Origin: an uncultured Cellvibrio sp.
GTDB lineage: Bacteria > Pseudomonadota > Gammaproteobacteria > Pseudomonadales > Cellvibrionaceae
Reading direction: 5' to 3'
Assembly (NCBI GenBank): GCA_946480695.1
Contig: CAMLKG010000046.1
Span: 1 to 24,959 of the forward strand
DNA length: 24,959 nt
The position numbers were made by a program, and so were the translations under genes. The notes below the pieces were generated by a model. That model saw only the letters and a program-made list of their open reading frames with translations. It was not told the origin of the DNA and ran no database searches. This document shows, one piece after another, positions 887 through 24,959 of this stretch. Position 1 is the stretch's first letter. Each line of letters begins with the position of its first letter.

Positions 887-1497
887 AATTAACAATCTCT
901 ACAAATGGCAAATTACTGGAAGCTAACTGTTCGGAGGCTTATCAATTAGCGGCCGAACAATTGTTAAATGACATTGCATCCATGGATATTTCGCTTGAGC
1001 CAGGCACAACGATTCTTTACGGCTGGATATTGCTCAAGCTGGCACCGCGCGATGGGCATTTAGCAGTGACAGCACCTGATATTGCCCATGGGAACCCCGA
1101 GGCGTACCAGGATAACCTGGACATTACCCTCAAGGTACTCACCGAACAAGCGCATCTCCTAAAACGATTGGGTCGCGACGGCAAACCAGCATTGTTCCTC
1201 GAAAAAGTTGTCTTACACAAAAAAAATCGGGAGCACAGTCACTTGTATATGGAACGCCTACCCAAGGCTTCCACTGATGATTCGGGATGGTACATAGGCC
1301 CGGAAAATGTAGATTCACCTGTAAAGGAAGACCTGACATCGGTATATGTGTATGAGGTGTTATCCATGATGCCGGAAGTAACGGGCGCGTTAGCGTTACC
1401 GGAGGGATTTCTGGCAACCATAGAAACCCATCGGATAACCCAAATTTACGACACTGAAAATCATCCATTATTATCTGGGGATGATAGTTTTACCTAA
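883..1497 (+). CDS. Putative immunity protein, DUF2185/Imm33-like
   Basis: A soluble 204-residue protein without signal peptide or membrane segment, starting at the ATG that overlaps the TGA of the preceding nuclease gene by four bases. Translational coupling and position directly after a toxin-like C-terminus suggest that it neutralises that toxin in the cytoplasm. The N-terminal half has GWILLKLAPRDG (48-58) and TAPDIAHGNPEAYQ (63-76). The C-terminal part has DSGWYIGPEN (133-142), an EVL..MPEV stretch and ALPEGF (171-176); a Ser-Gly-Trp motif followed by a conserved Leu-Pro-Glu-Gly is what I recall of DUF2185/Imm33 immunity proteins. The family assignment is from memory of the pattern, not from a search. 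The gene ends at 1497, and no terminator with a U-run follows directly. Confidence 0.6.
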   Translation: MKLTISTNGKLLEANCSEAYQLAAEQLLNDIASMDISLEPGTTILYGWILLKLAPRDGHLAVTAPDIAHGNPEAYQDNLDITLKVLTEQAHLLKRLGRDGKPALFLEKVVLHKKNREHSHLYMERLPKASTDDSGWYIGPENVDSPVKEDLTSVYVYEVLSMMPEVTGALALPEGFLATIETHRITQIYDTENHPLLSGDDSFT

Positions 1498-5080: not shown

Positions 5081-5086
5081 GTTTGA

Positions 5087-5093
5087 GTCCTCA
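5087..5093 (-). promoter_or_regulatory. Ribosome binding site deciding the xyl31A start
   Basis: TGAGGAC on the minus strand, six bases before the ATG at 5080. It supports the lipoprotein start over the TTG/ATG codons further upstream. Confidence 0.75.
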
Positions 5094-5149
5094 TTCTGCG
5101 TTTTTACTGTATAAGTTTTTTGATCCATTGGATTCAATTGGAGAGCTTC

Positions 5150-6856
5150 TCAATGGGTTGTATAGCTGGCCATTTTTATTTTAAGCAGGTGCGCGCGCGC
5201 GGTGAAATTTAACCCCCAATCGGTTTGGTCACCGTTCCACACGCGCTCCATAATCCATTTACCGTTTTCGTAATGGCCCTCTTCCACCCGTTCAACCATG
5301 TATTTTTTGCCGGCCAGTTCAGCGGATGGTTTTAATTCCACACGCGCCTTATGGGCCGTTATCAAATATTCGTTGTCGTTAAGTTGTGCAATCAATGCAC
5401 CGCCTGCGGCGGGTATATTGCCCTCGGGCGGCGCAATCCAGAACATAGGGCGGCCATAGGTTATTTCAGCATTCCACAATCCCAAATCCAGGGTTTGGGT
5501 TAATGCGCTTGCGCGATCTTTCGCAAATTGTTCCTTTTCTTCCGGTGTCGCTTCGGCGTTCCAGATTTTTTGCGTATCGGTGGTCGTATCCAATGGTTCG
5601 GCAACACCCCATACCCTGCTTTCAAAACCCAAGCGCGCCCACTCGCGCATCGCCGGCGCAAGCGCGCGATAATGCTGGGCAAATTGTTCAATCGTATCGT
5701 CATTATATTGTTTCGCGCCCAGCGGATAATTAGTGTAATCCGTATCGTCCATTCCGAAAGGCGAGAATCCGATTCCGCCCTTACCGAAGGTTGGATAAAG
5801 GTAACGCGCATAGGGTTGGTCATTGCCTATTTCTGCGACAAATAGCGCATTGTCGGGGCGAGCATAGAGCTCGAGCACTTTGGAAACGGTTTTGTGATCG
5901 CGAAAATAAATATCCGGTGCAATCAGATCAATAGAGGGTGCAGCGGCTTTCCATATGTGCAGTACGTTATCGGTACCACCGCCGCTGGAATATTGCCCCG
6001 GCAAGCCGGGGTTAAACGGATTGCGTAATGCCACATTCACATACATCGGCAAATTCAGGATTGCCTTACCGGCGGCGGTTATCGCCTCGCAATATTTGGC
6101 AATGTGGTAAGCGTGGAAAAATTCATCGGCATCGTTACCGAACACGTGCGGCCAGGTACCGCTTTTCAATTTCAGGACGCTAACCAATTCCTGCGGCACC
6201 GGCGCGTTAAACAATGCTTGCGCGGCGACGGAAAAATCCCGCGCGCTGCCATAGGTGCCCACTTCGTTTTCCACTTGCACCATAATCACGGTGTGGTCTT
6301 TATCGGCTTTTTTCAGGTGCTTCATTAACTCCACAAAGGCTTTTTTATCTGCCTCAAGCGTATTTGCCCCCAGGGGTGACAATGAATTTAGTGTGTCGCC
6401 ATCTTGCTTTACAACGCGCGGAAAACGCTGGTTGTTTAATTTCACCCAGGAGGGCGCATAGTGAGGTGCATTATTTTTCCAGGTTGCAAACCATAACAAT
6501 ACGAGTTTCACATCGCGCTCACGCGCTTGTTTTAATAAAACGTCCAGGTAAGAAAAATCAAATTTACCTTCCACCGGTTCCACTTGTTCCCAAGCCACTG
6601 GAATACTCAAGGTATTAGCGTGCATTTTTTCCACGGAAGGCCAGACATCTTTTAATGCAGCCGGATAATTACTGGAATTATTGGTTTGTGCACCGAGCAT
6701 CCAGAACGGCGCACCATCGACAAATAAGGCATGTTTACCGTTTTTAGAAACCACTTGGGGAAGCTCTGCCGCATGGGCAGCAAAGGGCAGCAAGAATGCA
6801 ACAGAAAAGCAACCGAACCACTGGCTCCAGGATTTACAAAAAAATGTGTTTGCCAT
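5150..6856 (-). CDS. bgl35A: GH35 beta-galactosidase of the xyloglucan cluster
   Basis: 568-residue retaining beta-galactosidase, expected to release galactose from the side chains of xyloglucan oligosaccharides. The N-terminal 30 residues form a type I signal peptide ending AAHAA, so the enzyme is exported, probably to the periplasm. The GH35 signature IMVQVENEVGTYG (191-203) places the acid/base at Glu198. FVAEIGND (339-346) places the nucleophile at Glu342. The length suits the compact bacterial GH35 group; large eukaryotic-type GH35 enzymes are longer. It lies between the TonB receptor and xyl31A in the same direction. An intrinsic terminator sits between the receptor and this gene, only 24 bases before the ATG, so its expression depends on read-through. 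The ribosome binding site is weak (AAGG about ten bases upstream). Confidence 0.92.
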   Translation of the reverse strand: MANTFFCKSWSQWFGCFSVAFLLPFAAHAAELPQVVSKNGKHALFVDGAPFWMLGAQTNNSSNYPAALKDVWPSVEKMHANTLSIPVAWEQVEPVEGKFDFSYLDVLLKQARERDVKLVLLWFATWKNNAPHYAPSWVKLNNQRFPRVVKQDGDTLNSLSPLGANTLEADKKAFVELMKHLKKADKDHTVIMVQVENEVGTYGSARDFSVAAQALFNAPVPQELVSVLKLKSGTWPHVFGNDADEFFHAYHIAKYCEAITAAGKAILNLPMYVNVALRNPFNPGLPGQYSSGGGTDNVLHIWKAAAPSIDLIAPDIYFRDHKTVSKVLELYARPDNALFVAEIGNDQPYARYLYPTFGKGGIGFSPFGMDDTDYTNYPLGAKQYNDDTIEQFAQHYRALAPAMREWARLGFESRVWGVAEPLDTTTDTQKIWNAEATPEEKEQFAKDRASALTQTLDLGLWNAEITYGRPMFWIAPPEGNIPAAGGALIAQLNDNEYLITAHKARVELKPSAELAGKKYMVERVEEGHYENGKWIMERVWNGDQTDWGLNFTARAHLLKIKMASYTTH

Positions 6857-6879
6857 AGAAAAGAAACCTTGTTAAATGA

Positions 6880-6913
6880 AAAAAACCTTGCCCCTCGCGG
6901 GGCAAGGTTTTTT
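6880..6913 (-). terminator. Intrinsic terminator between the TonB receptor gene and bgl35A
   Basis: A 15-base perfect inverted repeat with a TCGC loop (arms 6880-6894 and 6899-6913), core CCTTGCCCC/GGGGCAAGG, flanked by A- and T-runs. On the minus strand it begins 13 bases after the receptor stop, and the T-run leads towards the bgl35A start 24 bases further on. There is no room for a promoter between hairpin and ATG, so it probably acts as a partial terminator that lowers expression of the downstream enzymes, or protects the upstream mRNA 3' end. Confidence 0.9.
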
Positions 6914-6926
6914 ATCCCACGATCAC

Positions 6927-9839
6927 CTAGAATCTGGCGCGCAACCCAACAGCAAAGCGGGCATCTTGTGCGTAAGAGTAGGCTACATGATCCCCGGCAC
7001 CATTCTGGTCAATAATGCCAACAGTTTTTTCTTTCAATAGATTACTGGCTTCCGCCGTTACTGTGTAATTCTCAAGGAATGTGTAGCTGATTGAAGCATC
7101 CAGTTGGCCGTAATCATCGTTATATACCGGAATGCGAGCCTTACCGCCTAATCCATCGTTAAAATCCGGATCAAAACCATTACCGCCCCAGGAAATCAGG
7201 TATTTACTGCGCCATGAGTAAGCCAGGCGTGCGGAGAAGCCATCTTTTTCATACATACCGACAATGTTGAATGCATTCTTTGACAACTGGTCGATAGGCA
7301 ATTGTCCGTAAGAAGAACGATCCGTATCCAAAGGTGCCGCACCGGCTTGGGTGTCACCTGTTGTTGGCTGACTATTTAATGGAATGTCTGCGCTGCTATC
7401 GATATAAGTGTAGTTTGCTTGAATGCCCAATCCATCGAATGGAGCGGGCAACGCGTCAAAGAATTTATTAACACCGATTTCCACACCATTAATATCACCG
7501 GTACCGACGTTGTCTAACCATGTTGCTTCACCGGTGTAATCGCCAATGGCATAAGGTGCTGTTTGCTTCTTAAAGAAACCTTCCACCTGTTTGTTAAATA
7601 GCGCGGCGTAGGCCATACCTCCATTTTCGTCGAAGTACCATTCAACCGAAAGATCGAATTGCGAAGCCTCCATTGGCTTGAGGTAGGGGTTGGTGTCCTG
7701 GTTCAAATTGAAAGAGCGGATGGTTCCGGTCTCCTGGTCGATATTTGGGCTGGCAGTGACAAATGCCTGCATATCGGCGAAAGACGGATTCCAGATAGCT
7801 TTGGATGCAGCAAACCGCACATAAACATCCTCGGTGGCTTCCAGGCGCAAGTTAAAGCTCGGCAATACATGGGTGTTATTAGTCTTGGCTTCCAGGGGTT
7901 CTGTCGAACGAGGCACTACTACAACACCATTTACCGTCGCTTCATTAATAACCAAGGTACCCGAGGCGGTATTGTCGGTTTGTACAACACGCACACCGAT
8001 ATTACCGTCAATGGGCATAGCCAAATCATCAAAACCATAGTTGGTCATGATATACATCGCCACGGTTTTTTCGTCTTGCAGGTTTCTATAATCCGGATTT
8101 TCCAACCGCGTCCAATCGGAATATACGCTGCCCTCGCACCACCATGCACCGGGCACCTCACAATCCGCGTTAACAGCATCTGTCGTTGCACGGAAATTTC
8201 TGGTTGCAGCCGAAGAATACAAATATCCAGCTGCCGGAACTGTTACATCACCGCGTTGGAAATCACCAAACGAATACAAGGTCAGATAATCGGCTGCCTG
8301 GTCAGGCGTCACTTTTGGCAACGTGTTTTTGTCGAAACCGAACCAGGTTGCGTAGCGGGTATTCCAATCGTAGAGAGTGTTAATGTTATCGGCCGATTTC
8401 TCGGAATATCTCATCCCGGCTTTTACAGATTTAATCACCGCGCCTTCGAAATCGTATTCTGCATCAAAGCGCGCCGTTTTTGCTTCTGCCTCATTTCGCT
8501 CGAAGTGGGTCATCGCCTGGCCCAGGCTGTAATTGGCGAAATTGGACATGTAAGAAGGATCAACAATAATCGATGGAGTTTCCGAACCTATGCCGTCCAT
8601 ATAAGCTTCAGCAGGAATAACTTTCAAACCCAGGGTGTAGTCATCAATCGTTGCATCCGCTTTTACGTACTGTAAATCGGCAGAGAATTTCCAATGGTCA
8701 TCGGGCGACCATTTGATTCCGGTAGAGTAATCCGTTGTTTTTGAAACATTTTGCGCCCAGCGTGTACTGGTGCCGAAATCCAGCCCCCATTGCGCAGGGT
8801 TGGCAACCGTAACGGTTCCGGATTCCATCGCACCATTTGCGCTGTACACCCAATCGTTATCGCTGGTAGGCAAGAGTGCCTGATCACCGTTATGCCCTTC
8901 CAGGAAAAATGCGTTTTCGTCATATACATTGTCGTGTTTGGTTTGGAACGCAGTGAAATAAAGTTCAGTGTTTTCGTTTGGAGCCCATTGCAACGCAAGG
9001 TAACCACCTTCGCGAGTGCTTTCATGGTCATTGCGACGCCAATCCACGCCCTTGGAAACCCAAACATCATCACCGTTAATTGTTCGTGGCAAATAAGGGC
9101 GTGAATACACTTGATCTGAACGCGTCGCCAAATCAGAGGTTGATGCGTTTACAAGAATACCGAATTCCCCGGCATCAGTTTCCCAGCGGTTGCTGTACAA
9201 ACCGGAAAACTCACCATTGGTTTCTTTCAGTTGATCACCGTAATTCGCCTTTGCCGACAGGCTAACCAATTGACCATCGGAATCGAATGGCATACGCGTG
9301 CGCAAATTTACAGTGCCGCCAAGGCCACCTTCAATCATATCGGCAGACGGGCTTTTGTATGTATCAACGGCGTACATCAATTCCGCGGGTACGGATTCAA
9401 AACTAATACCGCGACCACTTGCCGCCGAAAAAACATCGCGGCCATTTAATTCGGAACGCACCTGCGTTAAACCACGAACAGCAACACCACTACCTTCTGC
9501 GGCGGGATGCTCTGCATCGTTACTGGTATAACGGCCAACAGTTACACCAGGTACGCGTTGCAATGCTTCGGTTACGCTGCGGTCCGGTAATTTACCGATA
9601 TCTTCGGCAACGATGGAATCCACTACAACGCTTGCATTTCTTTTTAATTCCTGCGCCGATTGGATACTGGCGCGCTGGCCACTCACGAGCACCTCTTCAA
9701 CTTGCTCGCTACCCGATGTGCTTTGCGCAACGCTGTGGCCAGCTATACCCATAGTACCTACAACCAACGAAACGCCGGATGCCAGTTTTATGTAAGCCGG
9801 TAATGTTTTTTTTATGAACCGTTTGCTGTTCGATGACAT
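6927..9839 (-). CDS. TonB-dependent outer-membrane receptor, probable xyloglucan-oligosaccharide transporter
   Basis: 970 residues: signal peptide (1 to about 39, ending GHSVAQ), TonB box EEVLVSG (48-54), plug domain with ASVVVDSIVAEDIGKLPDRS, ALQRVPGV and a VRGL element, then a long beta-barrel ending in an aromatic residue (RARF) as required for outer-membrane insertion. The plug layout is that of the Caulobacter-type TonB receptors associated with carbohydrate uptake. It should import xyloglucan oligosaccharides through the outer membrane using TonB/ExbBD energy. The start at 9839 has GGAGAAG five bases upstream. It begins 38 bases after the afc95A stop, so the two are very likely co-transcribed, and it is followed by an intrinsic terminator. 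Substrate assignment is from context, not from the protein itself. Confidence 0.92.
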   Translation of the reverse strand: MSSNSKRFIKKTLPAYIKLASGVSLVVGTMGIAGHSVAQSTSGSEQVEEVLVSGQRASIQSAQELKRNASVVVDSIVAEDIGKLPDRSVTEALQRVPGVTVGRYTSNDAEHPAAEGSGVAVRGLTQVRSELNGRDVFSAASGRGISFESVPAELMYAVDTYKSPSADMIEGGLGGTVNLRTRMPFDSDGQLVSLSAKANYGDQLKETNGEFSGLYSNRWETDAGEFGILVNASTSDLATRSDQVYSRPYLPRTINGDDVWVSKGVDWRRNDHESTREGGYLALQWAPNENTELYFTAFQTKHDNVYDENAFFLEGHNGDQALLPTSDNDWVYSANGAMESGTVTVANPAQWGLDFGTSTRWAQNVSKTTDYSTGIKWSPDDHWKFSADLQYVKADATIDDYTLGLKVIPAEAYMDGIGSETPSIIVDPSYMSNFANYSLGQAMTHFERNEAEAKTARFDAEYDFEGAVIKSVKAGMRYSEKSADNINTLYDWNTRYATWFGFDKNTLPKVTPDQAADYLTLYSFGDFQRGDVTVPAAGYLYSSAATRNFRATTDAVNADCEVPGAWWCEGSVYSDWTRLENPDYRNLQDEKTVAMYIMTNYGFDDLAMPIDGNIGVRVVQTDNTASGTLVINEATVNGVVVVPRSTEPLEAKTNNTHVLPSFNLRLEATEDVYVRFAASKAIWNPSFADMQAFVTASPNIDQETGTIRSFNLNQDTNPYLKPMEASQFDLSVEWYFDENGGMAYAALFNKQVEGFFKKQTAPYAIGDYTGEATWLDNVGTGDINGVEIGVNKFFDALPAPFDGLGIQANYTYIDSSADIPLNSQPTTGDTQAGAAPLDTDRSSYGQLPIDQLSKNAFNIVGMYEKDGFSARLAYSWRSKYLISWGGNGFDPDFNDGLGGKARIPVYNDDYGQLDASISYTFLENYTVTAEASNLLKEKTVGIIDQNGAGDHVAYSYAQDARFAVGLRARF

Positions 9840-9877
9840 GCTCTTCTCCAGTTAGAATTATTAACCTACCCCTAATG

Positions 9878-12310
9878 CTATTTTTTGTTGCCGGACAAGA
9901 GATATTTCCCTCCTGCCCTTGCGTTAAATGTCCCTGTTGTTTTATCAGCGCCCGGTTTATCGGTAACCAGGGCCAAGGTTCTTTTCCTTTGCATATCCAC
10001 CACCGTTAAATCCGCAACGGAAGATGACGTTCTGATGCGAACCGGGTTCGCGTGTCGGGTATTGATCATTGCGCGGGTTAATGCTCCCCGGTGCCATTCA
10101 ATGTCCAGCGTTATACCGCCGCGCGCGCGCAAACCGGTTACTGACCCGGAAGGCCAGGCATCCGGCAACGCCGGCAATAAATGCAATTCACCGTTATGGC
10201 TTTGCACCAGCATTTCCGCAATGCCAGCGGTTGCGCCGAAGTTGCCATCAATTTGGAACGGTGGATGGTTATCCCACAAATTACCCAACGTGCTCCGTTG
10301 TAGCTGTTCGCCCAATACTTTGTGCGCGCGATTGCCATCCAGTGCGCGCGCCCACATGTTGACTTTCCAGGCCTGCGACCAACCCGTGCCGCCATCGCCG
10401 CGCGCGTTCAGGGTGGTGCGCGCCGCGTTTAATAATTCCGGTTTTTTGTGGGCATCAATCTGGCGGCCGGGATGCAAGGCAAATAGATGGGAAATATGGC
10501 GGTGGTCATTATCAGGATCGTCGAGGTCCTCCTTCCATTCCTGCAATTGTCCCCAGGAACCAATGCGAAGCCCCTGATCCAGGTGCGAAAGTTTTTCAGC
10601 AAGTTGCTGCGCAAATTTTTTATCGCCCAATGTTTCAGCGGCTTCACGGGTGTTGCGCAATAAATCAAACACTATCTGCTGGGACATGGCGGCACCCCTG
10701 GTGAAAGGTCCATGCTCGGGGGAAAAACCGGGCGATACAACCCATAAGCCATCGCGTGGATCCTTCACCAAAAATTCCAGCCAGAATTGCGCAGCGCTTT
10801 TCATAATCGGATAGGCGCGTTTACGGAGGAAACGTTTATTGCCGGAAAATAAATAATGCTCGTAATAGTGTTGTGCCAACCAGGCGGATGCTTCCGGTTG
10901 CCAGAACGCGGTGGGCCAATCAATAACGCCGGTGAAACCCCAGATATTGGTATTTAAAAATAAAGTCCAGCCCTGGTTCACTCCCGCAACTTTTTGCGCG
11001 GAAATTTTTCCCGGCTCGACCAGGCTGTCCACGAAATCAAAATAAGGCCCCATGAGTTCCGACAGGTTTACGGTTTCCGCCAGCCAGTAATTCATTTGCA
11101 GGTTGATATTTACGTGGTAGTCATCATTCCAGGGCGGGGTGATGGAATTGTTCCAGACACCTTGCAAATTGGCCGGCAATGAACCGGGGCGCGATGATGC
11201 GATTAATAAATAACGCCCAAACTGGAAATAGGTTGCTTCCAGGCTGCGATCCAAACCGGCATCGCCCCTTTTGTAACGCTGCAATAATTGCGCAGTGGGG
11301 AATGGTTGTTGTTGCTGACCTATATCCAGCGCTACGCGCTTGAATAATTGTTGATAATCGTTGCGGTGATCTTGTTGCAACCGGGTAAAACTTTTTTTGC
11401 CCGCGTTATCAATTAACTTTTGCAAACGCGCATGGGGATGCTCACCGCGATAGCCTGGGTACTGTTGCGCGTAACCGGTGCCGGCAACCAAAAGCACAAC
11501 CACCGCATCGGCATTGGCGACGGAAATTTTTTCGTTTTCGACTGTTGTTCGTTCGCCGCCCTGGTTCATCACCAGTACCTGGGCTTCAAACGGCAGGCCG
11601 TTACTGTGCAATTCACCCCGGGCAAGCAGACGATTATTTTTTACCTGGCGATTAAAGGTCCGGTTATCCGGGGCCTGTAAACCGGCAACCAGTGAAACCT
11701 TTCCCGGCTGGTCGGCGCTGAACCGGATAGCGATCACCCCATCCGGATAACTGGCGAAGTATTCGCGGCGATAACGCACACCGCCCTGTTCATAACTGAC
11801 GCTAACCTGGGCGTCCGCGAGTGAGAGTTCGCGGCGATAACGGGTGACATCGCTGTCATTTTTGGGCAGGTCAAGGACGAGATCGCCGAAGGTTTGGTAG
11901 TCCCCATAGGCGGTGACCTTGCGCCCTAACTGTTTAGCCGCCGCTTCCGGGCTGATCGAACCTTCGCGGTTAATGGCATCGCGCACCTGCGCAATAGCAC
12001 CCGTTTGCGGTTGGGCAGGCCAGCCAAAGTCATAGCCTTCCGCCCCCGGGCCGCCCGTCCACAGGGTCTTTTCGTTGAATTGGACCCGGTCCTGTTCTAT
12101 TCCGCCGGCAATTACAGCGCCCATCGCACCATTGCCGATAGGAAGCCCCTCGGTCTCCCAATGGCCTGCCGGACGGTCAAACCAAATAACCGGAGGCACC
12201 GCAGCCCATGCCGGCAGACTGACCAATAGGAGGAGGACGGCAGCCGCCAGCAGGTTTTGCTTATTTCCTCGCCAGGAACAGGGGTGCAGGTTAACCCCGG
12301 AAGTGCTCAT
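9878..12310 (-). CDS. afc95A: GH95 alpha-L-fucosidase of the xyloglucan cluster
   Basis: Inverting alpha-1,2-L-fucosidase, expected to remove fucose from fucosylated xyloglucan oligosaccharides before the galactosidase and xylosidase act. The ATG at 12310 gives 810 residues; a TTG directly before it is ignored. The N-terminus carries a hydrophobic signal peptide ending PAWAAVPP (about residue 36), with no lipobox. GH95 hallmarks are visible: the N-terminal GLPIGNGAMGA block, HVNINLQMNYW with Asn401 and Asn403, SPEHGPF with the likely acid residue Glu532, and PPFQIDGNFGATAG with Asp688, corresponding to the catalytic Asn/Glu/Asp set described for the family. The ribosome binding site is weak. 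It is the first glycosidase gene of the run, 38 bases before the TonB receptor gene, and 141 bases downstream of the halogenase-like gene. Confidence 0.92.
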   Translation of the reverse strand: MSTSGVNLHPCSWRGNKQNLLAAAVLLLLVSLPAWAAVPPVIWFDRPAGHWETEGLPIGNGAMGAVIAGGIEQDRVQFNEKTLWTGGPGAEGYDFGWPAQPQTGAIAQVRDAINREGSISPEAAAKQLGRKVTAYGDYQTFGDLVLDLPKNDSDVTRYRRELSLADAQVSVSYEQGGVRYRREYFASYPDGVIAIRFSADQPGKVSLVAGLQAPDNRTFNRQVKNNRLLARGELHSNGLPFEAQVLVMNQGGERTTVENEKISVANADAVVVLLVAGTGYAQQYPGYRGEHPHARLQKLIDNAGKKSFTRLQQDHRNDYQQLFKRVALDIGQQQQPFPTAQLLQRYKRGDAGLDRSLEATYFQFGRYLLIASSRPGSLPANLQGVWNNSITPPWNDDYHVNINLQMNYWLAETVNLSELMGPYFDFVDSLVEPGKISAQKVAGVNQGWTLFLNTNIWGFTGVIDWPTAFWQPEASAWLAQHYYEHYLFSGNKRFLRKRAYPIMKSAAQFWLEFLVKDPRDGLWVVSPGFSPEHGPFTRGAAMSQQIVFDLLRNTREAAETLGDKKFAQQLAEKLSHLDQGLRIGSWGQLQEWKEDLDDPDNDHRHISHLFALHPGRQIDAHKKPELLNAARTTLNARGDGGTGWSQAWKVNMWARALDGNRAHKVLGEQLQRSTLGNLWDNHPPFQIDGNFGATAGIAEMLVQSHNGELHLLPALPDAWPSGSVTGLRARGGITLDIEWHRGALTRAMINTRHANPVRIRTSSSVADLTVVDMQRKRTLALVTDKPGADKTTGTFNARAGGKYLLSGNKK

Positions 12311-12353
12311 CAAATTTATCGCTCTTATATGGTATATATGACTATTTGGTCCA

Positions 12354-12382
12354 ATATTAAGACAATGTTTTTATACGTGCAA
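12354..12382 (-). promoter_or_regulatory. Weak candidate sigma-70 promoter for afc95A
   Basis: On the minus strand TTGCAC and TAATAT are separated by exactly 17 bases, about 45 bases before the afc95A start. Each box has only partial consensus matches (3/6 and 4/6). The surrounding 12314-12451 region is AT-rich and is the only gap wide enough for an afc95A promoter. Confidence 0.25.
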
Positions 12383-12451
12383 TATAAATCACCTATGACA
12401 AAAACTTGCTTCAACCGTTGATACCAAAAGAAACAAACCCCAATTGAAGCG

Positions 12452-13930
12452 TCACAAGGACCGCAGGAATTCCGCATGCGAGCCGGCATAGTGACAGCCC
12501 TTTTCAATCGCTATTCTCATTCTGTCCATGAGCACGACAGACCTTTCCCGGTCTCCCAAAGGCGGCAGCGCCTCGGGCGATAGGCCGAATCCGTAAAACA
12601 TACTTACCCAGCTATCTTCCTTAAACGATTCCTGCTCCAGCAGGTTAATGTGGCCCGACCTGCGGAAGGCGGCGATTTTTTCGGCCAGTGAATCCGGTAT
12701 ATCCATCTCCCTGGCGCATTTCCAGAATGCACCCTCGCGCCCGTTCAATTTGTAATGCAGGATGATGAAATCCCTGATGCGCTCGTACTCCAGGCGATTC
12801 AGGCGATTGGCTTCCGCAACCTGCTGTCCATGGATTTCAAAATTCACCAGGTAACCCGTCATTTTGGCGATGCCGGTTTGGATCAGCGAAATACTGGTGG
12901 ACTCCAGCGGTTCCAGGAAGCCGCTCGACAAGCCGATCGCCACACAGTTCTTGTGCCAGAAATCGCGCCGCATCCCGGTAGTGAACCGAATCAGGCGCGG
13001 CTCGGTGACGCGCTCGCCCCCCAGGTTATCCATCAGTTCCTGGTGCGCGCGGTCGTGGGAAATAAATTGACTGGCATAAACATAGCCATTGCCCACCCGG
13101 TGTTGCAGGGGGATGTGCCATTGCCAGCCCGCTGACCGGGCCGAGGATCGGGTAAAGGGGTCCGGTTCGGCGACGCATTGGGTTTGCACAGCGAGAGCGC
13201 TATCACACAACAGCCAGTGGCTCCAATCCTCGTAGCCCACACCCAATGCCTGGTGGATTAGCAAGGCCGGAATGCCCGTGCAATCAACAAACAAATCGCC
13301 TTCGATAACCTGCCCGGCCTCCAGCGAAATGGATTGGATAAAACCGGTGGATGCATCCAGTTGCACATGGTTAACCCTGCCTTCAACCCGGGCGACACCC
13401 CGTTTTTCCGCGTAATCGCGCAAGAACCTTGCAAACAGGGAGGCATCGAAATGATAGGCGTAGTTGTACCAGGCTAAACGGCTCTGCTCTTCAAAGCTGG
13501 GTAATGCAAATTTTCCGGCCCTGGCGAGTTGGGTGCAAAGGCAGAATTTATCCAGCTCCTGGGCATAACCCTGTTGTTTGGCTGCCCACCAGGTTTTGTA
13601 GAAAGGCTCCCCTCCAATATCGACCCCGTATCCCGCAAACGGATGGAAAAAGTGCTTGCCCTCCCGTGCCCAATGCGCGAACTCGATACCCAGCTTAAAG
13701 GTCGCATGGGTGGCTTTGATAAACTCGCTTTCCCTGATACCCAGGTCCTTGATGAACTGGTGAATCCCCGGGACGGTCGCTTCACCGACACCGATGGTCC
13801 CTATCTGGTCTGATTCGACCAATGTGACCTGGATATTAATGTTTTGCAGCCAGCGCGATAAAAATGCCGCCGTCATCCAGCCCGCCGTCCCGCCGCCAAC
13901 AATGACTATTTTCCGAACCGGTTTAACCAT
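12452..13930 (-). CDS. Flavin-dependent halogenase-family protein (tryptophan halogenase-like)
   Basis: 492 residues starting at the ATG at 13930, which has GGAG nine bases upstream; earlier in-frame codons would place residues before the nucleotide-binding motif. GGGTAGW (12-18) is the FAD-binding Rossmann loop. GWQWHIP (268-274) is the halogenase WxWxIP signature. The family's catalytic Lys is present in FKLGIEF (Lys79) and the active-site Glu in FLEPLEST (Glu343), so the protein has the main residues for generating and holding HOCl with FADH2 from a reductase. After EST there is Ser, where PrnA-type enzymes have Gly at the chloride site. Halogenase-like genes are often found beside TonB receptor genes in carbohydrate-degrading proteobacteria, where no substrate is known. 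It sits upstream of afc95A in the same direction, with a 141-base gap, so co-transcription is uncertain. No signal peptide. Confidence 0.88.
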   Translation of the reverse strand: MVKPVRKIVIVGGGTAGWMTAAFLSRWLQNINIQVTLVESDQIGTIGVGEATVPGIHQFIKDLGIRESEFIKATHATFKLGIEFAHWAREGKHFFHPFAGYGVDIGGEPFYKTWWAAKQQGYAQELDKFCLCTQLARAGKFALPSFEEQSRLAWYNYAYHFDASLFARFLRDYAEKRGVARVEGRVNHVQLDASTGFIQSISLEAGQVIEGDLFVDCTGIPALLIHQALGVGYEDWSHWLLCDSALAVQTQCVAEPDPFTRSSARSAGWQWHIPLQHRVGNGYVYASQFISHDRAHQELMDNLGGERVTEPRLIRFTTGMRRDFWHKNCVAIGLSSGFLEPLESTSISLIQTGIAKMTGYLVNFEIHGQQVAEANRLNRLEYERIRDFIILHYKLNGREGAFWKCAREMDIPDSLAEKIAAFRRSGHINLLEQESFKEDSWVSMFYGFGLSPEALPPLGDRERSVVLMDRMRIAIEKGCHYAGSHAEFLRSL

Positions 13931-14134
13931 TATTTTTATCTCCGGGTACTGATTACCGCGATGCACGCGCATAAATATCATAAATCATATATTAGATGCC
14001 ACCATTGTGGTTATGCGGTTGAAAAAGAATATGGCATAGCAGTTGCTGCACAGCAGGCAGACAGTTGGTCTCCCCTTGTGACAGGCCGAATTGGCGTAAC
14101 AAGCGGCTTTAGATGATCGGAGCAAAGCAACGAA

Positions 14135-19041: not shown

Positions 19042-19295
19042 ACTGGTCGTTCCCGCTCCCGCGCTGGCGACAGGTGCCGGTGGGGGATGCAGGACTTGCA
19101 AGCCCGCAGGTGGGGGTGAGTAAGCCTTATCAGGTTGTCCTATGCGCCAATCTTAACAGCTTGGGAAAATAGTTCCACTGGCCGGCGCTTAGACACAATT
19201 GCTTAAAAATAGCACGATATATCCGTAACTTCCTGATGTATCGATATAAATTACCTACCGGGAATCCTCCCGGCGCACGGGTCCCCGGCGAACAA
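19042..19295. other. Intergenic region between the DUF1631 gene and the guanidine operon control region
   Basis: Contains the undefined 5' end and presumable promoter of the minus-strand DUF1631 gene. The only structure I see is a perfect 6-bp inverted repeat CCGGGA-ATCC-TCCCGG at 19258-19273 with no T-run. No convincing gene. Confidence 0.4.
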
Positions 19296-19345
19296 GGCAC
19301 CAAAACAGAACATAATGCACCCCTGGAAAGCAACAAAATAGTGCA
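19296..19345 (+). promoter_or_regulatory. Candidate NtrC enhancer sites
   Basis: AGCAACAAAATAGTGCA at 19329-19345 matches the NtrC palindrome TGCACY-N5-RGTGCA at 10 of 12 defined positions. A weaker site, GGCACCAAAACAGAACA, lies at 19296-19312. Their centres are 33 bases apart, about three helical turns, and about 99 and 132 bases before the predicted transcription start, the usual geometry for NtrC enhancers at sigma-54 promoters. The consensus is recalled, not computed. Confidence 0.45.
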
Positions 19346-19409
19346 ACAGATTCCGGGGTCGAGGGATTAACCGCAGCCAATCCCGTTATAAATCAGCGCA
19401 TTAACGACT

Positions 19410-19424
19410 TGGCACTCATATTGC
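19410..19424 (+). promoter_or_regulatory. Sigma-54 (RpoN) promoter of the guanidine operon
   Basis: TGGCACTCATATTGC matches the -24/-12 consensus TGGCAC-N5-TTGC at every defined position, with GG at 19411-19412 and GC at 19423-19424. Transcription would start near 19436, about 70 bases before the riboswitch and 250 before the first gene. This fits nitrogen-limitation control of a nitrogen-assimilation operon. Confidence 0.75.
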
Positions 19425-19441
19425 GATAGCCCTGATGTAAT

Positions 19442-19492
19442 AACTGATCCGCACTCAGGGTGGTTTTAGCTATTCGATAAACTGATCCACAC
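19442..19492 (+). repeat. Direct repeat in the leader
   Basis: AACTGATCCGCAC (19442-19454) and AACTGATCCACAC (19480-19492) differ at one of 13 bases and start 38 bases apart. They sit between the predicted transcription start and the riboswitch aptamer. Role unknown; a protein or RNA site is possible. Confidence 0.5.
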
Positions 19493-19504
19493 AATTTGTT
19501 AATA

Positions 19505-19622
19505 GGAAGCTAGGGTTCCGGTCGCACGATTAACCACGTGTCGATGCCTGGTCCGAGAGCTTTCGACCTCAACCGAACCTTCGGCATCGAGGTTACACGG
19601 CGGGATAAAAGCCCGGGAGATG
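19505..19622 (+). ncRNA. Guanidine-I (ykkC-yxkD) riboswitch
   Basis: The conserved ykkC blocks occur in order: GCTAGGGTTCCG at 19509-19520, CTGGTCCGAGAG at 19548-19559, and ACGGCGGGATAAAAGCCCGG at 19597-19616 followed by GAGA. Between them a nested hairpin can form (CCTC pairing with GAGG around CCGAA-CC-TTCGG, 19566-19592), and a second hairpin lies upstream. This RNA binds free guanidinium and usually turns expression on. It is placed about 70 bases before the ABC transporter gene, which with the downstream genes fits guanidine use. The expression platform is not obvious. Confidence 0.93.
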
Positions 19623-19678
19623 ATTGGCCTAACCGCCAGAGTGCTCCCTATTAAAAACGCCGATGTCACCATACCGCT

Positions 19679-19683
19679 GGAGG
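19679..19683 (+). promoter_or_regulatory. Ribosome binding site of the binding-protein gene
   Basis: GGAGG six bases before the ATG at 19690. It selects that start over the in-frame ATG at 19663 and could be the target of the riboswitch if control is translational. Confidence 0.8.
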
Positions 19684-19689
19684 TTGCCC

Positions 19690-20766
19690 ATGTTGCACCA
19701 CGCTCGCCTCACCAAGACCCGCCTCATTAATACACCCCTTGCCCTGGCATTGTTGCTTTTTTCCGCACTGACCCCTGCGGCGGAACCCTTCAAGGTTTGT
19801 TGGTCAATTTATGTCGGCTGGATGCCCTGGGGTTATGGCGCGGAACAAAAAATTATCGACAAATGGGCAACGAAATACGGAATTGAAATCGAGGTTATAC
19901 AAATCAATGACTACATAGAATCCATCAACCAGTACACCGCCGGTCAGTTTGATGGCTGCGTAATGACAAACATGGATGCCCTCACTATCCCGGCGGCGGG
20001 TGGAGTTGATTCCACTGCACTGATTGTTGGCGATTTCTCTAATGGTAATGACGGAATTGTACTCAAGGGGAAAAACAAAACCCTGAAAGATATTAAAGGC
20101 CAACATATCAATTTGGTTGAACTCAGCGTGTCGCACTATTTACTTGCGCGCGCATTGGAAACTGTCGGATTAAAAGAAGCGGATGTAAAAGTGGTGAACA
20201 CCTCCGATGCGGACATGGTGGCTGTATACGGCACAAAAGATGTAACCGCTGTGACTACCTGGAATCCGCTGCTAAGCGAAATCCTTACCCAGCCCGACAG
20301 CACCAGGGTTTTCGATTCCTCACAAATCCCCGGCGAGATTATGGATTTAATGGTGGTGAATACCGCAACGCTGAAAAAAAATCCCGCCCTTGGTAAAGCC
20401 TTGGTAGGCGCGTGGTATGAAATCATGGAAGTCATCAATGCAAATGACAAAGCCGCTGTAGCAGCCAAAAACGCCATGGCAACCGCATCGGGTACTGACC
20501 TCCCCGGTTTCGAATCCCAACTCGCCAGCACCAAAATGTTTTATACCCCAGCCGCCGCACTTGAGTTGGTCAATAGCGATGAGTTGCTAAAAACCATGCA
20601 CAAAGTCGCCGGGTTTTCCTTCGACCATGGTTTGCTGGGCGAAGGCGCCCCGGATGCGAAATTCATTGGCGTTGAAGGTCCGAGAGGCGTTTACGGAAAC
20701 AAGGAAAATATAAAACTTCGCTTTGACACTACCTACATGCAATTGGCCGCTGATAAAAAACTGTAA
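19690..20766 (+). CDS. ABC transporter periplasmic substrate-binding protein, probably for guanidine
   Basis: 358 residues with a signal peptide (hydrophobic LALALLLFSALTPAAEP) and an NMT1/SsuA-type solute-binding fold. The start at 19690 has GGAGG six bases upstream. The sequence FKVCWSIYVGWMPWGYG at the mature N-terminus and the FDGCVMTNMDALTIPAAGGVDSTALIVGD block are typical of proteins annotated as urea-carboxylase-associated ABC binding proteins. Because the gene follows a guanidine riboswitch and precedes carboxyguanidine deiminase genes, guanidine is the more likely ligand than urea. It is the first gene of the operon; the permease follows after 66 bases. Ligand identity is inferred from context. 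Confidence 0.88.
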   Translation: MLHHARLTKTRLINTPLALALLLFSALTPAAEPFKVCWSIYVGWMPWGYGAEQKIIDKWATKYGIEIEVIQINDYIESINQYTAGQFDGCVMTNMDALTIPAAGGVDSTALIVGDFSNGNDGIVLKGKNKTLKDIKGQHINLVELSVSHYLLARALETVGLKEADVKVVNTSDADMVAVYGTKDVTAVTTWNPLLSEILTQPDSTRVFDSSQIPGEIMDLMVVNTATLKKNPALGKALVGAWYEIMEVINANDKAAVAAKNAMATASGTDLPGFESQLASTKMFYTPAAALELVNSDELLKTMHKVAGFSFDHGLLGEGAPDAKFIGVEGPRGVYGNKENIKLRFDTTYMQLAADKKL

Positions 20767-20832
20767 CGCAGAATAACAATCGAACGGATTCCCTCGTGTG
20801 GAACCCAAACCTTACAGGCCGGTAGAAAACCT

Positions 20833-21651
20833 ATGAAACGTTTGATTAACCTGACGCCCTCAAAACCGACCCGGTTATTGCTAGGGCTTGTCCCGTTTTT
20901 GCTAATCCTGTTTATTTACCTGGTCGCCTCAGACGCGCGCCTGGCCGAAAACGCGACGGATAAACTTTTACCCAGCTTTGCGCAAATGGGCGATGCAATC
21001 CACTCACTTGCCTTTGAGCCCAGCAAACGCAGCGGCAATTATTTATTTTGGCAGGATACATTCAGCAGCCTATACCGCCTGGTGCTGGGAATTTTTATCG
21101 CAGCCATCATAGGCTTTACCCTGGGTTTATTAACCGGCGCCATTCCCGGTATCCATTCGCCTATCGCCCCCCTGCTTACGATCATTTCGCTTGTGCCCCC
21201 CATGGCGCTGTTGCCGATCCTTTTTATTGTGTTTGGTTTGGGGGAGTTATCCAAAATCGCACTGATTGTGATTGGTGTTGCACCTTTTATCGCACGCGAT
21301 ATCCAACGATGCGCGCAGGAAATCCCGCAGGAACAATTGGTTAAAGCGCAAACGCTCGGTGCCTCCACCTGGCAAATACTGGTGCGGGTTTTAATTCCCC
21401 AATTGCTGCCGCGCCTGATTAACGCAGTGAGATTATCGCTCGGCGCCGGCTGGCTATTTTTAATTGCCGCCGAAGCCATTGCTTCTACAGATGGATTGGG
21501 CTATCGCATTTTCCTTGTGCGTCGCTACATGTCCATGGATGTCATTTTGCCTTACGTAGCCTGGATAACCTTATTAGCGTTTTTGATCGATTGGCTACTG
21601 GCCAAAACCAGTCGCAGATGCTTCCCCTGGCATTATCCGGCGGCCAAATAA
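20833..21651 (+). CDS. ABC transporter permease (guanidine/urea-type uptake system)
   Basis: 272-residue inner-membrane permease of the SsuC/TauC type. Hydrophobic segments are visible at about residues 15-33, 85-105, 110-145 and near the C-terminus. The cytoplasmic loop that docks the ATPase (EAA loop) is seen as VKAQTLGASTWQILVRVLIP. The segment AAEAIASTDGLGYRI is typical of this subfamily. It lies between the binding-protein and ATPase genes, with 16 bases to the latter, and would form the membrane pore of that uptake system. Confidence 0.9.
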   Translation: MKRLINLTPSKPTRLLLGLVPFLLILFIYLVASDARLAENATDKLLPSFAQMGDAIHSLAFEPSKRSGNYLFWQDTFSSLYRLVLGIFIAAIIGFTLGLLTGAIPGIHSPIAPLLTIISLVPPMALLPILFIVFGLGELSKIALIVIGVAPFIARDIQRCAQEIPQEQLVKAQTLGASTWQILVRVLIPQLLPRLINAVRLSLGAGWLFLIAAEAIASTDGLGYRIFLVRRYMSMDVILPYVAWITLLAFLIDWLLAKTSRRCFPWHYPAAK

Positions 21652-21667
21652 ACAGGTGGGAAACTCC

Positions 21668-22489
21668 ATGACCATTGTTCCTTTCAATAAAAAAATACCC
21701 GATGAAAAAACAGCCCACACCATGCCCCTGATCAAGGCTAAAAATGTGTGGAAGCATTATGGCGATAACCTGGTGCTTGAGCGCCTGAATATCAGCGTTA
21801 ATGCCGGTGAGTTTATTACCATGGTCGGCACATCCGGTTGCGGCAAAAGTACTTTTTTAAAAATGTTGCTGGGAATGGAAGCGCCCAGCTCGGGTGAATT
21901 ATTGCTTGAAGGAAAGCCCATTCCCGATGAGCCCGACCAATCGCGCGGCATAGTGTTCCAACAATATTCGGTATTCCCACACCTTACCGTGCTGCAAAAT
22001 GTCAGCATCGCGCGTGAATTTGAACATTCGCCATTGCTGGGAAAATTATTCGGCAACGCAAAACGCAACCTGGTTAATGAAGCGAAAGCGCTGCTCGAAT
22101 CCGTGGGCCTGAGCCACGCGCTAAATCGTTACCCGCACGAGCTATCCGGAGGCATGAAGCAGCGCCTGGCTATCGCGCAAGCGTTGATTCGCAAACCCAG
22201 GATACTGTTATTGGACGAACCCTTTGGCGCCCTCGATCCCGGCATTCGCGCCGATATGCATCAATTAATTTTGCAGTTGTGGCGCGAGCACCAACTCACG
22301 GTGTTTATGGTGACCCATGATTTAAGCGAGGGATTTTATTTGGGAACCCGTTTATGGGTATTCGATAAAGTACGCCACGACAACCAGGCACCCAACGCCT
22401 ATGGCGCAAGCATCACTTACGACCTGCCCGTCACACGCCGTACCAGCGACATTCCTGCACAATTACAGACATTCGCTAACGAGACTTAA
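21668..22489 (+). CDS. ABC transporter ATP-binding protein (guanidine/urea-type uptake system)
   Basis: 273 residues from the ATG at 21668; a GTG twelve bases earlier is a less likely start. All ATPase motifs are intact: Walker A GTSGCGKST, Q-loop VFQQYSVFPH, signature LSGGMKQRL, Walker B ILLLDEPFGALD, and the switch His in VTHDLSEG. The C-terminal extension (DKVRHDNQAPNAYGASITYD) is characteristic of ATPases next to urea-carboxylase-type genes. It should energise the permease encoded just upstream. The next gene starts 25 bases after the stop, indicating one transcript. Confidence 0.92.
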   Translation: MTIVPFNKKIPDEKTAHTMPLIKAKNVWKHYGDNLVLERLNISVNAGEFITMVGTSGCGKSTFLKMLLGMEAPSSGELLLEGKPIPDEPDQSRGIVFQQYSVFPHLTVLQNVSIAREFEHSPLLGKLFGNAKRNLVNEAKALLESVGLSHALNRYPHELSGGMKQRLAIAQALIRKPRILLLDEPFGALDPGIRADMHQLILQLWREHQLTVFMVTHDLSEGFYLGTRLWVFDKVRHDNQAPNAYGASITYDLPVTRRTSDIPAQLQTFANET

Positions 22490-22514
22490 GGCCTTTAATA
22501 TTCCGGATAAAACC

Positions 22515-23249
22515 ATGAGCAAAACTATTTACACCACAACACTTCCCGGCAACGGCCACTGGTCGCTGGAATTACGGCGCGGCAGTTTTTTGAAAATTAC
22601 CGATCTGGACGGCGGAGCCAATGTCGGCATGTTGTTTTACAACCCGCGCAATTTATTGGAGCGCTACAACGCCCCGGACACACTCAAATGCCAACACACA
22701 TTTAAATTGCAACGCGGAAATTGTTTGTATTCCGATATGGGACGAATTTTTGCCTCTATTATTGAAGACTATTCAGTCAATAATGAAGGCAACTGGCACG
22801 ATACGATATGTGGCAACAGTACCGCGCAGATAGTTGAATCCCGTTGGGGAAAACGCGATTACCAAAAAGATCGCAACCACTGGTTACAAAACGGTTATGA
22901 CGCTTTCCTGGTCGAGCTTGCAAAATACGGTCTGGGCCGCGCCGATATGGCATCCAACATAAACTGGTTCAGCAAGGTCGTTGTGGATGATAAAGGCAAC
23001 ATTGCTCTCGACACCAGGAACCAATGCGCGGGCAACAGTATTACCTTGCGATTTGAAATGGATACGCTGGTGATCATGCACGCATGTCCGCATCCATTAA
23101 ACACCTCCGCACAATACCCCTTTAAAGCCGTACAAATTGAATTGGGCGCGGCGGATCCTGTGACCAATGATGATTATTGTAAAAACTTCAGGCCGGAAAA
23201 CCAGCGTGGATTTAACAACAACGATCTCTATTACCTTTCAGTCATCTGA
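22515..23249 (+). CDS. DUF1989 protein, carboxyguanidine deiminase subunit (urea-amidolyase-associated protein 1)
   Basis: 244 residues from the ATG at 22515; the frame is open further upstream, but that reading would overlap the ATPase gene. The protein belongs with the paralogous pair long annotated as urea-amidolyase/urea-carboxylase-associated proteins, shown to act together as a deiminase turning carboxyguanidine into allophanate and ammonia. The N-terminal ITDLDGGANVGMLFYNPRN motif is shared in pattern with the next gene. Cys60, Cys99 (DTICGNST) and Cys191 (IMHACPHP) are candidates for a metal site, by appearance only. It is followed after 15 bases by its partner. Assignment as subunit A or B is left open. 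Confidence 0.88.
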   Translation: MSKTIYTTTLPGNGHWSLELRRGSFLKITDLDGGANVGMLFYNPRNLLERYNAPDTLKCQHTFKLQRGNCLYSDMGRIFASIIEDYSVNNEGNWHDTICGNSTAQIVESRWGKRDYQKDRNHWLQNGYDAFLVELAKYGLGRADMASNINWFSKVVVDDKGNIALDTRNQCAGNSITLRFEMDTLVIMHACPHPLNTSAQYPFKAVQIELGAADPVTNDDYCKNFRPENQRGFNNNDLYYLSVI

Positions 23250-23264
23250 GTTGAGGCATCGATA

Positions 23265-23906
23265 ATGTCACTCGTCCAAAGCAACTTGCACCCGGAAACC
23301 GCAACTGGGCGCCACCATGTAAAGGCCGGGGATTATTTCCTTGGCGAAATAAAACAAGGCCAAACCTTCCGTATTGTAGACCTGGAAGGAAACCAGGCAG
23401 CGGACGTTTTGTTTTATAACGCCAACGACACCAGCGAGCGCTACAGCGCAATGGATACTATTCGCACCCAGGGCAATTTATATTTAAGCGCGGGAACAAA
23501 ATTAATTTCCAATACGGGAAATGAATTACTGGAAATTATCGCGGATACCTGTGGTCGTCACGACACACTCGGCGGTGCCTGCGCAACAGAAAGCAACACC
23601 GTCCGCTACAGCCTGGAAAAAAGATGTATGCACGCATGCCGCGACTCCTGGATGCTCGCTATTGCGGAACATCCGGAATTCAATATCAGCAAACGCGACA
23701 TTACCCATAACATTAATTTTTTCATGAACGTTCCGGTCACAGCCCAAGGCGGGCTTACCTTTGAAGATGGTATTTCCGCACCGGGAAAATATGTGGAACT
23801 CACAGCCAGAATGGACATCCTCATGCTGGTTTCCAATTGCCCGCAACTGAATAATCCATGCAATGGGTACAATCCCACACCTATCGAAATCATTGTTTGG
23901 GGCTAA
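23265..23906 (+). CDS. DUF1989 protein, carboxyguanidine deiminase subunit (urea-amidolyase-associated protein 2)
   Basis: 213 residues, ATG at 23265 with GAGG about nine bases upstream. It is the second member of the deiminase pair. The [15 protein letters not shown] block (38-52) mirrors that of the preceding protein, showing common descent. Conserved Cys/His clusters [17 protein letters not shown] (95-111) and [11 protein letters not shown] (119-129) probably bind metal. Together with its partner it would convert carboxyguanidine, the product of the carboxylase encoded downstream, into allophanate plus ammonia. Seventy bases separate it from the carboxylase gene, and that gap holds a second riboswitch. 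Confidence 0.9.
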
Positions 23907-23920
23907 TAAAAAATCACGCC

Positions 23921-23970
23921 TCAGTGGACGACCACTGTTGTAAAAATCCCTGCGGGACGACCCGCCGGAG
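23921..23970 (+). ncRNA. Guanidine-II (mini-ykkC) riboswitch before the carboxylase gene
   Basis: Two perfect short hairpins with identical ACGA tetraloops: CAGTGG-ACGA-CCACTG at 23922-23937 and GCGGG-ACGA-CCCGC at 23952-23965, with a 14-base linker. Both share the GGACGACC/GGGACGACCC core. Two consecutive stem-loops with ACGR loops are the defining mini-ykkC architecture. The second hairpin is followed directly by the ribosome binding site GGAG (23967-23970) and the ATG at 23977, the usual position for translational control by freeing the ribosome binding site when guanidine is bound. Confidence 0.88.
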
Positions 23971-23976
23971 CAGACC

Positions 23977-24959
23977 ATGTTTACCAAAGTACTCATCGCC
24001 AACCGTGGCGCCATCGCTACGCGCATTATCCGCACCTTAAAAAAATTAAATATCCACGCAGTCGCGGTGTATGCCGAATCCGATCTTGATTCGCTACATG
24101 TGCGCCTTGCCGATGAAGCTTTTTCGCTCGGCGAAGGCGCGGCTGCCCAGACTTATCTGGATCGCAAAAAAATAATTGCCATTGCCCAACAAGCCGGTGC
24201 GCAAGCAATACATCCCGGATACGGATTCCTCAGTGAGAATGCCGGTTTTGTTGCGGACTGCGAAGCTGCGGGCATCGTGTTTATCGGCCCTACTGCGGAA
24301 CAAATGCAAACGTTCGGTTTAAAGCATAAAGCGCGCGAACTTGCGCAAGCAGCTAATGTTCCGCTCTGCCCCGGCACCGACCTTTTAAAAGATATTGATG
24401 CAGCCCAAACGGCAGCCGCAAAAATCGGATACCCCGTAATGCTAAAAAGCACAGCCGGCGGCGGCGGTATAGGAATGCAATTGTGTAACAACGAACAGGA
24501 TTTGCTATCCGCTTTCGATTCGGTCAAACGCCTCGGCAAAAATAATTTTGCGGATGATGGCGTTTTCCTGGAAAAATTTATCGCCGCCGCACGCCATATT
24601 GAAGTACAAGTCTTCGGCGACGGCAAAGGTACGGCGGTTGCTATTGGCGAGCGCGACTGCTCGAGCCAAAGGCGCAACCAAAAAGTGGTGGAGGAATGCC
24701 CTGCACCCAACTTGCCAGAGGAACAACGCAATGCCATGCAAAAAGTGGCTGAGCAATTGCTAGCCTCGGTAAATTACCGCAACGCCGGTACAGTCGAATT
24801 CATTTACGATTCATTTGAAAACCAATTTTATTTTTTAGAAGTCAATACGCGCCTGCAAGTAGAGCACGGAGTAACGGAAGAAGTGTATGGAGTTGACCTG
24901 GTTGAATGGATGCTAAAACAAGCCGCTGGTGAGCTAGGTAATATTCGCACCTTGCGAAG
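23977..24959 (+). CDS. Guanidine carboxylase (urea carboxylase family), biotin-carboxylase part, 3' partial
   Basis: The first 327 residues of a large biotin-dependent carboxylase; the frame runs off the right edge. The N-terminal KVLIANRGAIATRIIRT is the start of the biotin-carboxylase domain. The ATP-grasp glycine loop is STAGGGGIGM (158-167), and EVNTRLQVEHGVTEE (288-302) is the active-site signature. ATP-dependent carboxylation of biotin is therefore certain by family. Whether the acceptor is guanidine or urea depends on the carboxyltransferase domain outside the window. The riboswitches and deiminase genes argue for guanidine carboxylase. GGAG six bases before the ATG lies right after the mini-ykkC hairpin. 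An allophanate hydrolase would be expected downstream. Confidence 0.92.
   Translation, partial: MFTKVLIANRGAIATRIIRTLKKLNIHAVAVYAESDLDSLHVRLADEAFSLGEGAAAQTYLDRKKIIAIAQQAGAQAIHPGYGFLSENAGFVADCEAAGIVFIGPTAEQMQTFGLKHKARELAQAANVPLCPGTDLLKDIDAAQTAAAKIGYPVMLKSTAGGGGIGMQLCNNEQDLLSAFDSVKRLGKNNFADDGVFLEKFIAAARHIEVQVFGDGKGTAVAIGERDCSSQRRNQKVVEECPAPNLPEEQRNAMQKVAEQLLASVNYRNAGTVEFIYDSFENQFYFLEVNTRLQVEHGVTEEVYGVDLVEWMLKQAAGELGNIRTLR

Follow-up and report, generated by a model that had tools for sequence, protein, structure and literature searches.

The 24,959-nucleotide stretch of an uncultured Cellvibrio genome analysed here (the window; contig CAMLKG010000046.1) raises the question of whether one run of guanidine-assimilation genes reads the same ligand twice, through two unrelated RNAs. 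The preliminary description of this DNA proposed that the operon begins with a guanidine-I (ykkC) riboswitch and that two hairpins with ACGA loops, standing directly before the ribosome-binding site of the carboxylase gene, form a guanidine-II (mini-ykkC) riboswitch, and it set a covariance-model search at 23921-23970 as one test. Both class assignments held (Table 1): each model matches above its gathering score, the stems of the internal element covary among relatives, and its second hairpin abuts the CGGAG site of gca. We are confident that a guanidine-II riboswitch occupies the space between cgdB and gca in the guanidine-assimilation operon of a Cellvibrio-like bacterium.

Table 1. Features of the guanidine operon in the window
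Feature	Position	Strand	Basis
Guanidine-I (ykkC) riboswitch aptamer, operon head	19499..19621	+	Rfam RF00442, 82.3 bits, gathering 63
Terminator-like hairpin GGGAG...CTCCC, candidate expression platform	19615..19648	+	fold of 19596-19665, z -3.25
ABC transporter substrate-binding protein	19663..20766	+	NCBIfam TIGR03427, 550.7 bits, cut-off 333.9
ABC transporter permease	20833..21651	+	best NCBIfam match TauC-like, below its cut-off
ABC transporter ATP-binding protein	21656..22489	+	NCBIfam ABC ATP-binding matches; listed ones below cut-offs
cgdA, carboxyguanidine deiminase subunit (urea amidolyase associated protein UAAP1)	22515..23249	+	TIGR03425, 310 bits, cut-off 205.95
cgdB, carboxyguanidine deiminase subunit (UAAP2)	23265..23906	+	TIGR03424, 332.1 bits, cut-off 284.7
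Guanidine-II (mini-ykkC) riboswitch	23922..23965	+	Rfam RF01068, 34.2 bits, gathering 32; covariation
CGGAG Shine-Dalgarno-like site of gca	23966..23970	+	sequence; MFE and centroid folds
gca, probable guanidine carboxylase; 327 codons present, gene runs past the window end	23977..24957	+	TIGR02712 urea_carbox, N-terminal part

The genes between the two RNAs encode an ABC importer, whose substrate-binding protein more likely starts at 19690, after a GGAGG, and the products of cgdA and cgdB, which match the UAAP1 and UAAP2 models above cut-off as a pair and which we take to be the carboxyguanidine deiminase subunits. The pair is named cgdA/B in the available text of PMC12508155. Among the best 80 of 573 confirmed relatives of cgdB in the genome collection, Cellvibrio mixtus J3-8 (L001) comes nearest: its cgdB is 94% identical, and its gca agrees with the window at 303 of 327 residues.

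The match of gca to TIGR02712 covers profile positions 1-320 of 1201 and lies below the full-length cut-off; the NCBIfam name of this N-terminal part, urea_carbox, would fit a true urea carboxylase whose switch belongs to a urea system. Such a reading is very unlikely: at the column of yeast urea carboxylase N1330, presumably the specificity site for urea versus guanidine, the L001 protein aligned to yeast urea amidolyase has Asp (VDFTGDMP) where yeast has Asn (INFTGDEP), and Asp stands there, always in a DGPS context, in all 76 readable relatives (4 of the 80, L006, L012, L058 and L077, are unreadable at this column, and the window ends before it). In addition, three Cellvibrio-group genomes (L088, L089, L090) carry a second, Asn-type (urea-type) carboxylase beside an allophanate hydrolase, separate from a guanidine locus with no match to the hydrolase gene atzF. 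An atzF-like gene lies within 46 of the 80 loci; no atzF match was found in the Cellvibrio-group loci L001-L007, among which L001, L002, L003, L004 and L007 extend for more than 4 kb beyond gca; further loci of the set are also without the gene. The separation of allophanate hydrolase from gca in these five Cellvibrio-group loci is possibly a new detail. Each of seven genomes (five of the Cellvibrio group, L009 and L029) has one atzF match over cut-off away from the guanidine operon, which suggests that in the Cellvibrio group allophanate derived from guanidine may be consumed by an enzyme whose gene is not part of the guanidine-switched operon.

The internal element consists of two G+C-rich stem-loops with ACGR tetraloops, P1 (CAGTGG-ACGA-CCACTG, 23922-23937) and P2 (GCGGG-ACGA-CCCGC, 23952-23965), joined by a linker of 14 nt (23938-23951), in keeping with the at least 13 nt that most guanidine-II RNAs have according to the available text of PMC5486947. 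The CGGAG is followed after 6 nt by the gca ATG at 23977, leaving 11 nt between P2 and the start codon. The neighbourhood likewise suits a class that precedes guanidine export or carboxylase genes: the carboxylase gene is directly 3' and cgdA/cgdB are 5'. Two ACGR-loop stem-loops also characterize the RF01068 RNAs of E. coli sugE and Gloeobacter violaceus, the latter sharing the 14-nt linker (available text of PMC5486947), whereas the sugE element precedes an exporter gene rather than standing inside an operon before a carboxylase gene. The RF01068 match (E = 0.0017 when the entire window is searched with 4227 Rfam families) is only 2 bits above the gathering score, and the folding energy of the wider gca leader is unremarkable (z -1.22), that of the core being better (z -2.86). 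So narrow a score would be compatible with hairpins that arose by chance or are a decayed relic, a reading that we regard as extremely improbable in view of the position-specific conservation (73 of 80 loci) and strong covariation described below.

Conservation was assessed in the best 80 of the 573 cgdB relatives, from bacterial and archaeal genomes, and the rates accordingly describe near relatives only. A plain search for two GGACGRC motifs 19-79 nt apart locates the paired hairpins no more than 300 bases past cgdB in 73 of these loci; with both strands counted, the 1,250,778 bases that the loci comprise contain 85 such pairs, 73 at this site and 12 elsewhere. The Rfam guanidine-II model (E at most 0.001, matches assigned to loci by coordinates, without contig names) finds the element within the same distance in 65 of 80 loci, with the gathering score reached in 58 of the 65; the motif-positive loci lacking a model match at this threshold number eight (L005, L006, L007, L017, L050, L070, L072, L074). 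Guanidine-I matches lie upstream in 71 of 80 loci, those of L006 and L064 not being counted since they fall on the wrong side of cgdB and probably belong to other contigs. Where at least 5 kb of upstream sequence is available (74 loci), guanidine-I is present in 71, guanidine-II in 61 and both, in this order, in 58, which shows that the two-switch layout is usual among the nearest relatives sampled.

Covariation was evaluated in an alignment of 60 distinct hairpin pairs, picked by loop motif alone, against 500 shuffles. Standard pairs fill 90.7% of pair cells, compared with 70.8% in shuffled and 24.7-50.8% in slid alignments; the covariation score is 0.498 versus 0.135 in shuffles; and 143 cells are changed on both sides versus 46.6. 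None of the 500 shuffles reaches the observed value for cells paired, double changes or covariation score. Two controls are weaker: both-side changes occur at 8 of 12 stem pairs, a number reached by 40 of 500 shuffles, and the observed number of pair types is reached by 7 of 500.

The novelty that the preliminary description implied for the two-class layout did not survive comparison with the literature. The guanidine operon of Vreelandella boliviensis carries both classes, and in-line probing demonstrated guanidine binding by both RNAs (available text of PMC12508155); in common with the window, it has guanidine-I at the head, guanidine-II between cgdB and gca, an ABC importer, cgdA/cgdB and gca. 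It differs in the addition of mgdH, mgdL and atzF, the last giving no match in the loci L001, L002, L003, L004 and L007 (the window ends inside gca). In three enterobacteria, according to the accessible portion of the review PMC12186494, guanidine-I accompanies importer and deiminase genes, as in the window, and guanidine-II accompanies the carboxylase, there together with the allophanate hydrolase. Because these two sources already describe the layout, the finding is ordinary, and the window is a further case of a published arrangement; what it adds is a Cellvibrio-group example of a gene run in which two unrelated RNAs each sense the one ligand, no literature linking Cellvibrio with guanidine and a riboswitch having been found in the collection searched. 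The comparative set departs from one published statement: according to the available part of PMC9788540, A. dieselolei and A. xenomutans are the sole Alcanivorax species in which guanidine-II was detected, there preceding a SugE-like gene, whereas all 11 Alcanivorax-titled loci among the best 80 of 573 relatives (L013, L019, L024, L027, L028, L031, L040, L042, L043, L049, L068) have a guanidine-II match just after cgdB (36.8-49.6 bits).

Guanidine-II is described as a translational ON switch, in which a guanidine-driven loop-loop contact frees the ribosome site (available texts of PMC9094411, PMC5486947 and PMC12186494). In the window, guanidinium held between the two ACGA loops would join P1 and P2; this contact would pull the linker taut and so keep it off the CGGAG just below P2, and with the CGGAG free in the presence of guanidine, gca would be translated. 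Translational ON control of gca by the element is likely on this analysis, in which guanidine binding, cooperativity, ON direction and level of control are all presumed from published relatives. The linker/Shine-Dalgarno step is the least secure part of the mechanism. In the predicted MFE and centroid folds, linker CC/UCC (23947-23950) pairs with GG/GGA of the CGGAG, extending P2, and with the linker constrained to stay unpaired, exposing the ribosome site costs 2.93 instead of 4.63 kcal/mol; because a collinear kissing complex needs a stretched linker, the bound state would be expected to be incompatible with this pairing.

A general anti-Shine-Dalgarno role of the linker is not supported among 52 non-redundant leaders, 25 of which score above their shuffled linkers (mean z 0.20; z 0.72 for the window). 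These 52 were drawn from 71 leaders (70 loci and the window), to the exclusion of three loci that have the motif and in which no start codon or no hairpin pair at the required spacing was recognised (L015, L067, L070) and of the seven loci without the motif. The linker contributes more than 0.5 kcal/mol in 31 of the 52 (median 0.96), shuffled linkers being equal on average, and the leaders of L008, L037, L048 and L050 lie well above their own shuffles. This test was negative across leaders; action on translation is probable, with the linker route as a candidate. The same null result would suit an aptamer acting through mRNA decay or Rho-dependent polarity within the operon instead of ribosome access, and translational switches and mRNA level can be linked (available text of PMC12508155). 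We consider this unlikely: P2 ends only 11 nt before the start codon, the element keeps within 300 bases of cgdB in 73 of 80 loci, and a pattern scan detects no plus-strand terminator-like site after the element up to 24100.

If the internal switch indeed governs translation of gca, guanidine-I at the head would act first, on the whole transcript, leaving importer and deiminase under one switch and the carboxylase under two in series. The separate control of import/deiminase and carboxylase levels that the preliminary description anticipated would follow from such an arrangement, and the two switches may respond at different concentrations; in the one measured pair found, that of V. boliviensis, the apparent KD values given in the available text of PMC12508155 are 44 µM guanidine for guanidine-I and, for guanidine-II, 93 µM guanidine and 83 µM methylguanidine. 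The last value bears on the tentative idea that methylguanidine or another guanidino compound is among the natural ligands of the internal switch, its input thus differing from that of the head switch: in V. boliviensis guanidine-II binds methylguanidine as well as guanidine, and guanidine-I does not bind methylguanidine in the tested range (same source, available text). That idea is doubtful for the present operon, however, since in L001 the next ORF of at least 150 aa after gca lies on the opposite strand, so that this gene run contains no methylguanidine-demethylating genes beyond gca; in the window, gca itself is cut off by the end of the sequence.

Seven of the 80 loci have no element after cgdB (L011, L016, L030, L035, L046, L058, L079), and among them only L011, L030 and L046 have a full-length gca there. 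Four of the seven nonetheless carry another guanidine switch among the genes of the same-strand run: L016 and L035 have a second guanidine-I before cgdA; L079 has an internal guanidine-II before a desaturase-like gene and a guanidine-I before cgdA, its head guanidine-I lying just outside the locus examined; and L030 has an internal guanidine-II, again before a desaturase-like gene. A split carboxylase gene occurs in L016, L035 and L079, where the ORF following cgdB (661-666 aa, about 8600-10680) matches only L001 residues 454 to about 1120, the N-terminal biotin-carboxylase part being absent, and an atzF-like gene is next. L058 has guanidine-I before cgdA and no gca match in the locus, and on another contig of its genome guanidine-I and guanidine-II share a strand at a distance of about 4.5 kb, which matches the usual layout. 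L046 has guanidine-I before cgdA and a full-length gca followed by a binding-protein gene; in L011, whose contig starts about 4.7 kb before cgdB, no switch was found.

Retention of an internal switch at a different site in some exceptions, of which three have a split gca, is possibly a new detail; the switch appears to move where the carboxylase is split, because L016, L035 and L079 combine a relocated switch with a partial gca. It is conceivable, at rather long odds, that the conserved trait is a second guanidine checkpoint inside the operon, and not guanidine-II itself, with selection acting on the gate rather than the RNA fold. As part of the same speculative proposal, the serial switches might constitute a staged or AND-type gate, keeping the ATP-consuming carboxylase in check until there is plenty of imported guanidine. 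The two-switch layout being usual among the sampled relatives makes the idea of staged control testable.

The L030 locus includes a larger guanidine run (3245-7255) with creatininase-family, glutamine-synthetase-like and desaturase-like genes and a further ORF, as identified with Pfam. Similar ORFs occur in L079, and the creatininase-family and glutamine-synthetase-like genes also in L016 and L035, judged by ORF starts; no literature joining guanidine, a riboswitch, creatininase and glutamine synthetase was found in the collection searched.

At the operon head, the candidate expression platform of guanidine-I is a hairpin that overlaps the 3' edge of the aptamer and is followed by TATTAAAAA, with no clear T run; it is identical in L001 and L002 and shows small changes in L003, L005 and L007. 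A terminator pattern scan of the window does not list this hairpin. A scan for sigma-70-like promoters on the plus strand at 19110-24100 returned none and carries little weight, as no such site is listed for the operon head either. In the predicted fold of the guanidine-I leader, the segment 19676-19685, containing the GGAGG ribosome site of the first gene, is paired with 19576-19585 of the aptamer; because of this pairing, guanidine-I could also affect translation of the first gene, in a model fold that as a whole is not unusual (z -1.07).

Other observations concern the surroundings of the operon. In Cellvibrio mixtus (L001) the gap between cgdB and guanidine-II holds an extra GC-rich, palindrome-like stretch (8660-8718), perhaps a small repeat element. 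At the start of the window (2-1497), a protein with an Imm33-like immunity domain comes after a partial ORF that has no Pfam match, a pair suggestive of the end of a polymorphic toxin and its immunity gene. On the minus strand at 2123-13981, a domain search identifies GH31, GH35/GH42-like, TonB-dependent receptor, GH95 and tryptophan-halogenase-like genes, a block that presumably resembles a xyloglucan-use locus.
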